From assembly GCF_004307425.1 (NCBI RefSeq), contig NZ_SEWZ01000001.1, forward strand, positions 125,662 to 189,661: a DNA stretch of 64,000 bases. The letters are read 5' to 3'. Positions 58,407 through 60,900 of the stretch are shown here, piece by piece. How positions within the stretch are numbered: the first letter of the stretch is position 1; every line of letters starts with the position of its first letter. The DNA comes from Aquirufa antheringensis (GTDB lineage: Bacteria; Bacteroidota; Bacteroidia; Cytophagales; Spirosomataceae). The position numbers and the translations under genes were made by a program. The notes beneath the pieces were generated by a model. That model was given only the letters and a program-made list of their open reading frames with translations. It had not been told where the DNA came from and did no database searches.

Positions 58407-58658
58407 ATGACACTAGTTAACGAACCTGTAGATAAGAACGGAAACCGCAAAAAGTATTGCCGTTTCAAGAAATCTGGTATTCAATACATCGATTTCAAAA
58501 ACCCTGATTATTTATTGAAGTTAGTGAACGAGCAAGGTAAAATCTTACCTCGTCGTATCACTGGAACTTCTTTGAAATTCCAACGTCGTGTGGCACAAGC
58601 TATCAAGCGTGCTCGTCACTTGGCTTTGATGCCTTACGTGGCTGACGGTTTAAAATAG
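58407..58658 (+). CDS. rpsR: 30S ribosomal protein S18
   Basis: 83-residue small-subunit protein that forms a heterodimer with S6. It has CRFKKSGIQYIDFKNPDYLLKL and the C-terminal basic GTSLKFQRRVAQAIKRARHLAL typical of S18. It has the usual place between rpsF and rplI. Spacing to rplI is 36 bases. Confidence 0.97.
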   Translation: MTLVNEPVDKNGNRKKYCRFKKSGIQYIDFKNPDYLLKLVNEQGKILPRRITGTSLKFQRRVAQAIKRARHLALMPYVADGLK

Positions 58659-58694
58659 TACCTTATCCAATAAACATTTGATTGTAAACATAAG

Positions 58695-59138
58695 ATGGAA
58701 ATTATATTAAAAACAGATATTGCTGGATTAGGTTACAAAAACGATATCGTTGCAGTGAAAGCTGGTTACGGTCGTAATTACTTAATTCCACAAGGTTTCG
58801 CTATCATGGCGACTCCGTCTAACCGCAAGGTTGTAGCGGAAAACATCAAGCAAGCTGCTCACAAAGTAGAGAAAGTTCGTCAAGATGCATTCGATTTAGC
58901 TACAGCTATCGGTGAAATGACATTAACTATTCCTGCGAAGACAGGTGATAGCGGAAAAATCTTTGGTCGTGTGACTAGCCTTCAAATTTCAGAGATGTTG
59001 AAAGAAAAAGGTTTCGATATCGATCGTAAGAAGATTTCATTCGATACAGAAGTGAAGACAACCGGCGATTACGCTGCTACGCTTGACTTACACAAAGAAG
59101 TAAAACACAAGATTGCTTTCTCTGTGGTTTCAGAATAG
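58695..59138 (+). CDS. rplI: 50S ribosomal protein L9
   Basis: A 147-residue large-subunit protein spanning the L1 stalk base. The N-terminal MEIILKTDIAGLGYKNDIVAVKAGYGRNYLIPQG pattern (here 1-34) is diagnostic; the C-terminal domain is GKIFGRVTSLQISEML. It ends the ribosomal operon, followed by the terminator at 59164 and the hairpin arrays. Confidence 0.97.
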   Translation: MEIILKTDIAGLGYKNDIVAVKAGYGRNYLIPQGFAIMATPSNRKVVAENIKQAAHKVEKVRQDAFDLATAIGEMTLTIPAKTGDSGKIFGRVTSLQISEMLKEKGFDIDRKKISFDTEVKTTGDYAATLDLHKEVKHKIAFSVVSE

Positions 59139-59163
59139 TATTTGAAACAAAACGATAAGAAGG

Positions 59164-59194
59164 AATCGCGCTGAGCAATCGGCGCGATTTTTTT
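59164..59194 (+). terminator. Intrinsic terminator of the rpsF-rpsR-rplI operon
   Basis: Stem AATCGCGC (59164-59171) with GCGCGATT (59182-59189), 10-base loop, T run 59188-59194. It is 25 bases after the rplI stop. Confidence 0.85.
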
Positions 59195-59225
59195 ATTTTA
59201 TGCCCCGGCATAAAATAAAAAAATC
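59186..59225. repeat. Perfect 19-bp palindrome with 2-base centre
   Basis: Arms 59186-59204 and 59207-59225 are exact reverse complements around the central CC; each arm carries a T7/A7 run, an ATTTTA element and GCC. It shares its first bases with the rplI terminator and abuts the left hairpin array. Confidence 0.9.
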
Positions 59226-59403
59226 TAGTCGCCTTCGGCTTAGTCGGCGCGGTGCGCCTTAGTCGCCTTCGGCTTAGTCATCGCTGCGCGATTTAGTCGG
59301 CGCGGTGTGCGCCTTAGTCGCGACTTCGTCGCTTAGTCATCGCTACGCGATTTAGTCGGCGCTTGCGCCTTAGTCGCCTTCGGCTTAGTCATCGCTGCGC
59401 GAT
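59226..59403 (+). repeat. Left array: ten variable mini-hairpins separated by constant TTAGTC
   Basis: Ten self-complementary units (each 9-15 bases) are joined by TTAGTC. Units in order: GCCTTCGGC (59231), GGCGCGGTGCGCC (59246), GCCTTCGGC (59265), ATCGCTGCGCGAT (59280), GGCGCGGTGTGCGCC (59299), GCGACTTCGTCGC (59320), ATCGCTACGCGAT (59339), GGCGCTTGCGCC (59358), GCCTTCGGC (59376), ATCGCTGCGCGAT (59391). Stems are 3-5 bp, loops 2-5 bases, and every stem pairs exactly although its sequence changes, while the linker never changes. I do not recognise the element. Confidence 0.9.
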
Positions 59404-59423
59404 TTGCTCGAAAATGTCAGCAC

Positions 59424-59459
59424 AAAAAAAATCCGAAGAGGAATTTCTTCCCCTCCGGA
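59424..59459 (-). terminator. Minus-strand intrinsic terminator between the two arrays (probably for icd)
   Basis: Hairpin arms 59432-59443 and 59448-59459 (10 of 12 pairs, loop TTTC); read on the minus strand it is followed by eight T (complement of 59424-59431). It lies 129 bases beyond the icd stop, so the right array would be in the icd 3' UTR. Confidence 0.75.
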
Positions 59460-59465
59460 CTCTTT

Positions 59466-59591
59466 GACTAAGTTGCGAAGCAACGACTAAGACGAAGTCG
59501 ACTAAGTCTCGAAGAGACGACTCATTTTAGACTAAGTTGCGAAGCAACGACTAAGCGACGTAGTCGCGACTAAGCCGCCTGCGGCGACTTA
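59466..59591 (-). repeat. Right array: six variable mini-hairpins separated by constant GACTAA (inverted relative to the left array)
   Basis: Units on the plus strand: GTTGCGAAGCAAC (59472), GACGAAGTC (59491), GTCTCGAAGAGAC (59506), GTTGCGAAGCAAC (59536), GCGACGTAGTCGC (59555), GCCGCCTGCGGC (59574), joined by GACTAA, the reverse complement of the left linker. One linker is broken by CTCATTTTA (59521-59529). The last motif, GACTTA (59586-59591), overlaps the icd stop codon (59589-59591). Read on the minus strand, these are the same TTAGTC-hairpin pattern as the left array. Confidence 0.9.
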
Positions 59592-60818
59592 CGCCAGCGC
59601 AGCCTTCAAATTCGTATCTAAAGCCTCTAAGAACTCTTCTGTGTATAAGTAGTGTTCTCCGTGAGTAACTTTGTTACCGTGGATACAAACGGCTAAGTCT
59701 TTGGTCATCTTACCTGACTCCACTGTAGCCACACATACTTTTTCCAATGTTTGGCAGAAATTAATCAAAGCCGCATTGTTATCTAATTTACCACGGAACT
59801 CTAAACCACGAGTCCAAGCGAAGATAGACGCGATTGGATTCGTAGAAGTAGGCTTTCCAGCTTGGTGATCGCGGTAGTGACGAGTCACTGTTCCGTGAGC
59901 CGCTTCCGCTTCCATCACTTTTCCGTCTGGCGTAATCAATACAGAAGTCATCAAACCTAATGAACCGAAACCTTGCGCAACGGTATCAGACTGAACGTCT
60001 CCATCGTAGTTTTTACAAGCCCAAACAAAGTTACCATTCCACTTTAATGCAGAAGCAACCATGTCATCGATCAAACGGTGCTCATAAACGATCCCTGCAG
60101 CTTCGAATTTCGCTTTGTAATCTGCTTGGTAGATCTCTTCGAAGAGATCTTTGAAACGACCATCGTATTTCTTCAAGATCGTGTTCTTAGTTGATAAGTA
60201 TAAAGGCCATCCTTTGCTTAATGCCATGTTAAAGCATGAGTGTGCGAAACCTTTGATGGATTCATCTGTATTGTACATGGTCATTGCAACGCCATCGCCT
60301 TTGAAGTTATAAACTTCGAACGTTTGAGCTGCACCACCATCTTCTGGTTGGAATGTAACGGTTAATTTACCTTTTCCTTTTGTGACGAAGTCAGTCGCGC
60401 GGTATTGATCACCAAACGCGTGACGACCGATCATGATCGGAGCAGTCCAGTTAGGGACTAAACGAGGAACGTTTGCACAAACAATTGGCTCACGGAAAAC
60501 AGTACCATCTAGGATGTTACGGATCGTTCCGTTTGGAGATTTCCACATTTGTTTCAAATCGAATTCCGTTACACGAGCCTCATCAGGAGTGATGGTAGCA
60601 CATTTGATACCTACACCGTATTTTTTGATTGCCTCAGCTGCTTCGATTGTTACTTGGTCATTCGTCTCGTCGCGGTATTCTACACCTAAATCATAGTACT
60701 TGATGTCTAGCTCTAAATAAGGTAAGATTAATTTATCCTTGATGAATTTCCAGATAATTCGAGTCATTTCGTCGCCGTCTAATTCAACGACTGGGTTGGC
60801 AACTTTAATTTTTTCCAT
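59589..60818 (-). CDS. icd: NADP-dependent isocitrate dehydrogenase (eukaryotic-like type)
   Basis: Oxidises isocitrate to 2-oxoglutarate in the TCA cycle, producing NADPH. 409 residues, type II (eukaryotic-like) family: [24 protein letters not shown]-terminus, [19 protein letters not shown] substrate segment, [16 protein letters not shown] and a C-terminal [18 protein letters not shown]. The ATG at 60818 was chosen over an in-frame upstream start at 60890 because it begins the family N-terminus and lies below the promoter element at 60859. Codon use is strongly biased, suggesting high expression. Its stop codon lies inside the last unit of the right array. Confidence 0.96.
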
Positions 60819-60858
60819 TTTTGTTATATCAAAATTTTGATAGGTTGTGTTAATCCTG

Positions 60859-60866
60859 CAAAGGTA
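60859..60866 (-). promoter_or_regulatory. -7 promoter element of icd
   Basis: TACCTTTG on the minus strand (TAnnTTTG), 40 bases before the icd ATG at 60818. No strong -33 partner. Confidence 0.5.
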
Positions 60867-60900
60867 AAGACTAAATCTTTTTTCCTCCATTATTTTGGGG

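Follow-up and report, generated by a model that had tools for sequence, protein, structure and literature searches.

The site between rplI and icd

The window analysed is a stretch of 64,000 nucleotides from Aquirufa antheringensis. Two arrays of mini-hairpins face each other in it, both between two convergent genes, which we take to be rplI and icd (isocitrate dehydrogenase). The features of the site are:

58695..59138, + strand: open reading frame, presumably rplI (50S ribosomal protein L9), left neighbour of the arrays
59164..59200, + strand: terminator-like hairpin with T run 3' of rplI, from reading the sequence; it recurs in carriers of the arrays
59186..59225, no strand: perfect AT-rich palindrome of 40 nt (18-bp arms, 4-nt loop); it overlaps the T run that follows the rplI terminator-like hairpin
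59226..59403, + strand: left array, ten mini-hairpins with TTAGTC linkers on the + strand
59404..59465, no strand: core of 62 nt between the two inward-facing arrays, from reading the sequence
about 59424-59461, - strand: icd terminator-like hairpin within the core, from reading the sequence
59466..59591, - strand: right array, six mini-hairpins with TTAGTC on the - strand (GACTAA on the + strand)
59589..60890, - strand: open reading frame, icd-like gene

The ten and six palindromic units joined by TTAGTC and GACTAA that an earlier note had described are present, apart from three deviating loops; one unit of the left array has a 5-nt loop, and each array contains one 12-mer unit. The linker, called invariant in that note, is mostly so, with three exceptions: the first linker of the left array is CTAGTC, one linker of the right array is longer (GACTCATTTTAGACTAA), and the last of the right array, GACTTA, is the first linker on the - strand and overlaps the icd stop codon (59589-59591). 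The arrays are indeed non-coding at this site. An Rfam search of positions 58600-60000 of the window gave eight weak matches, none of them above the gathering score.

The contents of this intergenic region vary among relatives. The genome of the window (G000), G023 and G013 have different arrays, while G007 has heptamer repeats instead and no hairpin array at icd. The icd stop codon lies within the first linker in G000, G027 (TAA) and G030 (TAG), and the G023 array at icd starts slightly later than the stop. Of the genomes that do not carry arrays, six have rplI and icd together on one locus, 117-121 nt apart in five cases and 228 nt apart in G016. Among the loci read, the icd product ends in KAALA in five carriers and in KVALA in three non-carriers; in the latter, icd has a TAA stop and a short terminator region. 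In G013, a different palindrome, near-perfect to perfect, occupies the place of the 59186..59225 palindrome.

Anatomy of the repeat unit

A unit consists of the 6-nt linker TTAGTC and a perfect hairpin with a 3-5 bp stem, a C-G closing pair and usually a 3-nt loop, and is mostly 15, 17 or 19 nt long. The usual triloop is TNC or TNT, which corresponds to GNA or ANA on the GACTAA strand. The array regions analysed in four genomes (G000, G007, G013 and G021) contain 314 units bounded by a strict linker on either side. Of these, 270 form flush hairpins that pair perfectly and have 3-5 nt in the loop, against a mean of 3.4 and a maximum of 10 in 200 letter shuffles; random self-complementarity, which the earlier note had named as one refuting outcome, does not explain them. 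In the window, TTAGTC occurs 45 times on both strands together, the shuffle mean being 26 and none of 100 shuffles reaching 45.

The 257 triloop hairpins of these four genomes have 27 different stem sequences, with stems of 5 bp (175), 3 bp (57) or 4 bp (25); the closing pair is C-G in 256 of them. TNC loops, which read c(GNA)g when taken from the GACTAA strand, account for 203. With relaxed linkers and a fifth genome (G008), 541 of 639 units are perfect. Their loops are TNC (419), TNT (65), GNA (18) or other (39), and the linker preceding the hairpin is TTAGTC in 403 cases and GTAGTC in 16.

According to Hirao and Yoshizawa, the c(GNA)g loop reportedly gives very stable DNA mini-hairpins. PMC6479982 cites d(GCGNAGC), which has this loop, as forming such mini-hairpins. 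The likeness to our units lies in the C-G closing pair and the GNA triloop on the GACTAA strand; the d(GCGNAGC) hairpins are a physical motif, not a genomic repeat family.

Distribution over genomes

The pattern TTAGTC-R-N7..13-Y-TTAGTC matches 76 times in G000 (completeness 99.55%) and not once when read backwards; a looser pattern gives 82 matches, against 19 in the control. The matches fall into 21 clusters at about 20 sites on both strands, one of the clusters (L042) being a non-palindromic match inside an open reading frame. Ten of the 38 genomes of the genus, the own genome included, carry 21-101 units each, so that the copies sought by the earlier note exist both elsewhere in this genome and in relatives. 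The other 28 have 0-2 pattern matches, as a group no more than the backward controls, and the six listed (in five genomes) are not hairpins of the TTAGTC type. Requiring three linkers in a row returned the same ten carriers among 59 genomes, the own one included. An rplI orthologue was found in 32 of the 38 genomes; because L9 identity to the protein of the window is 98-100% in eight matched carriers and 87-93% in 24 matched non-carriers, the ten carriers look like one subclade.

A scan of 291 genomes of the order gave five with matches, namely G000, G145, G216, G229 and G298. The last four were rejected as carriers, the matches listed being tandem repeats; among those listed for G145, one is a tandem repeat with a 3-bp palindrome in identical copies. 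Long tandem octamers (TTAGTCAT) also occur in G145, at C91:1026-1095 and C129:37522-37599. Among 120 stretches from named genomes, at least 15 contain a minimum of two units of this type, and all 15 bear titles of Cytophagaceae metagenome-assembled genomes. A phage origin was discarded: 40 viral stretches match the three-linker pattern, two of these contain any flush palindrome of at least 3 bp, and neither of the two has a C-G-closed triloop. Our literature search recognised no published description of a TTAGTC hairpin family; in PMC4853749, TTAGTC occurs in a primer only.

In-frame copies and heptamer repeats

One coding sequence also contains the repeat. A transporter, which we take to be of the RND type, is fused to a presumably TolC-like part (L286-L294), and in-frame repeats lie in the linker that follows a hydrophobic stretch. 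At this place, G007, G008 and G013 have hairpins and several GACTAA linkers; G015 combines hairpins with heptamers, and G023 has both together with a single GACTAA linker. In G000, G002, G021 and G030 the repeats are heptamer-like. In-frame GACTAA-linked hairpins are thus present in four of the nine carriers read, or five if G023 is counted. The linker is short in all 17 readable loci of the 21 non-carrier loci.

Heptamers with the core GACT match in nine of the ten carriers and in eight of the 28 non-carriers, two of which (G006 and G012) also have four and three control matches. The three-heptamer pattern matches 166 times in G000, against no control match, and once in G007, against two. Degenerate GACT-core heptamer arrays in G000 include C1:330610-330713 and C2:148059-148141; at L046, a GACT heptamer array grades into a hairpin array. 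Other heptamer-like repeats, such as TGGTAAA, also occur in G000. As the heptamers are more widespread than the hairpin arrays, the latter may have grown from GACT heptamer repeats at similar sites.

Heptamer direct repeats are familiar from cyanobacteria, as the STRR sequences. The TAACTGA heptamers of MacGregor are described, in PMC4679880, as found in five Bacteroidetes, mostly intergenic and oriented relative to start and stop codons, some of which they overlap. Their orientation to start and stop codons is comparable to that of the TTAGTC arrays, and GACT heptamers share a site with these arrays here. Heptamer direct repeats differ in sequence, however, and have no hairpins between the repeats. 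The hairpin arrays are not built of tandem 7-nt units, the heptamer arrays being a separate, partly adjoining kind.

Conservation of shape and turnover of units

Orthologous sites were paired through their flanking sequence. In 151 aligned hairpins, of which the query members were preselected as perfect and their partners were not, 700 stem pairs could be compared: 611 are the same, 66 compensated, 17 broken and 6 G-T, i.e., 66 of the 89 changed pairs are compensated. Sixty-two of the 151 hairpins are fully identical. Under a stricter filter (143 hairpins), 28 differ at one pair, with 16 compensated and 12 one-sided changes. Part of the compensated pairs probably reflects the exchange of entire units. 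The covariation check proposed in the earlier note thus supports its suggestion that the shape of the hairpin, not the sequence of the stem, is maintained.

In 91 hairpins with identical stems, substitutions at loop positions 1, 2 and 3 number 5, 21 and 14. Eleven of the 14 at position 3 are C-T, and the GNA/ANA form is therefore mostly kept. The 52 hairpins with one mismatch have, on the TTAGTC strand, 25 A-C, 10 G-T and 17 other mismatches (19 A-C and 9 G-T when terminal pairs are excluded), a weak hint that GACTAA is the folding strand.

Clean gaps of 15, 17 and 19 nt between orthologous arrays were found in 5, 4 and 7 cases; those of 14 and 16 nt are absent, and those of 18 and 20 nt number two and one. 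Another 36 clean gaps measure just 1-2 nt, and at least one of the 15-nt gaps does not correspond to a unit. The whole-unit gaps can be explained wholly as losses, no gain of a unit having been polarised. Tandem higher-order repeats occur among the arrays, for instance at L045.

Position and orientation relative to genes

The genes in the position counts are mechanical open reading frames, and many of the counted loci are orthologous, so the counts are not independent. In four genomes, 70 of 103 arrays have a same-strand reading frame upstream, a figure to which convergent regions contribute by symmetry. Between tandem genes, 19 arrays are sense and 19 antisense; arrays also precede gene starts and run antisense to genes. 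In five genomes, 102 of 132 arrays have their 5' side nearer to a coding edge than the other side; among the 62 that are alone in their region, 44 do. Opposite-orientation neighbours within 350 nt point inwards in 24 cases and outwards in none, while 12 of the 36 neighbour pairs are on the same strand. A fold-back origin of the inward pairs was rejected, the orders of units on the left and right being unlike, as judged by eye in a few pairs.

In 15 of 71 rows, the upstream stop codon occupies one and the same position of the first linker (distance -4), and the stop is TAG in 33 of the 52 arrays with an upstream gene end within 60 nt, compared with 36 of 179 other reading frames. The 24-to-0 inward rule and the stop codons within linkers need explaining under any model.

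Many arrays have a second, MITE-like looking repeat next to them, which is several tens of bases long and contains the inverted repeat TTGACA...TGTCAA. It was seen at L037, L038, L039 and L041 in G000 and at L227, L229, L230 and L231 in G007.

These regularities of position, together with the constancy of the linker, speak for boundary elements with a function for the host, in which a protein bound to the hairpin-spaced TTAGTC linkers at the borders of intergenic regions would insulate promoters and terminators, or the linkers would supply stops on both strands, and selection would keep orientation and shape. We consider this explanation rather unlikely, as arrays are absent from 28 of the 38 genomes of the genus, their contents vary among relatives up to the replacement by heptamers at icd in G007, copies are found inside a protein and, in the fragmented genome G008, the 5'-edge rule is obeyed by only 4 of 12 single arrays.

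Folding of the arrays

Folding of the whole left array is no better than that of most shuffles (DNA z -0.09 and -0.90, RNA z -1.22), and its RNA fold is not a string of mini-hairpins. The right array folds better as RNA than its shuffles do (z -2.50, 3 of 200). When the TTAGTC strand of 27 arrays is folded as RNA, on average 25% of the mini-hairpin pairs are formed. More of the mini-hairpins form on the GACTAA strand, in 20 of the 27 arrays as DNA and in 23 as RNA; in a random-loop control, the difference between the DNA strands was as large or larger (0.083 vs 0.045), and the idea that energy models show the observed loops to favour the GACTAA strand was dropped.

The earlier note had also considered a multi-hairpin 3' UTR RNA, which would protect mRNA ends or aid termination, as proposed for REPs. 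The icd array, between the stop codon and the terminator-like hairpin, fits this proposal, as do the RNA fold of that array and the frequency of same-strand upstream genes, inflated though the latter is by the symmetry of convergent regions. The left array, however, lies beyond the rplI terminator-like hairpin and its RNA disfavours the mini-hairpins, the family also occurs before gene starts and inside a coding sequence, and the A-C mismatches outnumber the G-T ones on the TTAGTC strand. Because arrays occur both sense and antisense, without the prevailing sense orientation of a 3' UTR stabiliser, a pure 3' UTR RNA is improbable. The arrays are maintained as a shape, more probably on the level of DNA than of RNA, since strand relative to the gene is irrelevant, some copies precede gene starts or lie within a protein, and RNA folding produces the mini-hairpins poorly.

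Known repeat systems and candidate enzymes

With CRISPR, the arrays share a short constant repeat and a variable insert; the inserts here are self-complementary, mostly 9-13 nt long, and the same ones recur across sites, in agreement with the earlier note, which had set CRISPR aside. Rickettsia palindromic elements lie in frame in proteins, and one gene of the present family has in-frame copies. These elements and the CGTC-tagged palindromes differ from the units described here, in which TTAGTC flanks each hairpin, the stems are variable and arrays are formed; the commonest linker ends in AGTC, not CGTC.

A mere minisatellite, changing through slippage and biased conversion with no role of the hairpin in copying, would account for the unit-size gaps and the tandem higher-order repeats. 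It seems quite improbable in view of the 27 kinds of perfect triloop stem, the compensated changes, the constrained loops and the occurrence at about 20 sites on both strands.

REP, BIME and REPIN sequences are, according to PMC3733652 and PMC3116915, small dispersed palindromes, mostly extragenic, near gene ends and often in inverted pairs. To that extent the likeness is clear, the inverted pairs of REPINs having their counterpart in the inward-facing neighbours. REPs and REPINs, however, have a conserved palindrome tagged with GTAG, whereas in the present arrays the constant part is the linker, the stems vary, and units of 15-19 nt follow one another in tandem. GTAG is not the regular tag at the foot of the palindrome here; the linker GTAGTC, which contains it, precedes 16 of 541 hairpins.

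No match to Y1_Tnp (PF01797, E<=0.001) was found in the ten carriers, several of which are incomplete (G000, G013 and G007 are 96-99.55% complete, the others less so), while 12 of the 28 non-carriers have one. A RAYT or Y1 enzyme was therefore rejected as the present driver, and the REP-like element with a RAYT-type transposase of the earlier note is unsupported. That the arrays are REP-type elements moved by a RAYT or another Y1 (HUH) transposase, since lost or supplied from elsewhere, is very improbable despite the palindromes beside a short tag, the REPIN-like inward pairs and the mostly extragenic location, given the lack of Y1_Tnp matches, the unconserved stems and the differences of arrays among carriers.

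Two other enzymes were considered and rejected. Reverse transcriptase (RVT_1) is present in 5 of the 38 genomes, three of the ten carriers (not the own genome) and two of the 28 others, and is uncorrelated with carriage. The SbcD model TIGR00619 matches none of the 38 genus genomes, carriers or not; it matches 13 of 14 control genomes, 8 of them over the cut-off. The loss of the hairpin nuclease SbcCD was rejected as the cause, the lack of an SbcD match being common to carriers and non-carriers; such a loss may be permissive for the arrays but does not discriminate carriers.

Proposed origin and maintenance

The reading we prefer, with a probability of roughly 0.45, is that the arrays are a lineage-specific, dispersed, REP-like but RAYT-less family, which is maintained as a DNA structure and whose units turn over through slippage, template switching and conversion. 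They would be mostly selfish DNA that is tolerated at the borders of genes and within a protein linker. Units would be lost through slippage between the 6-nt direct repeats; homogenisation of the arrays would come from template switching and from conversion among hairpins of like shape, which would also yield compensated stem changes in one step. The likely substrate would be c(GNA)g mini-hairpins formed by the GACTAA strand while it is single-stranded during replication. Against this reading, neither a copying event nor an intermediate or an enzyme was observed. Plain slippage predicts neither the inward rule nor the pull towards coding edges, and both may reflect a function.

More tentatively, and with considerable doubt, the arrays may represent a new class of repeat, whose constants are the 6-nt linker, the hairpin shape and the c(GNA)g loop, the stem being free. 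Such a self-complementary minisatellite would spread and be proof-read via single-stranded DNA hairpins on one strand, with no transposase, and would grow inward from gene edges.

In these arrays, shape is separated from sequence, with many natural stem variants and compensated changes at shared sites of related genomes. This makes it testable by what route small palindromic repeats spread when no transposase is known for them, and whether the spread is driven by hairpins that one of the DNA strands forms when single-stranded.
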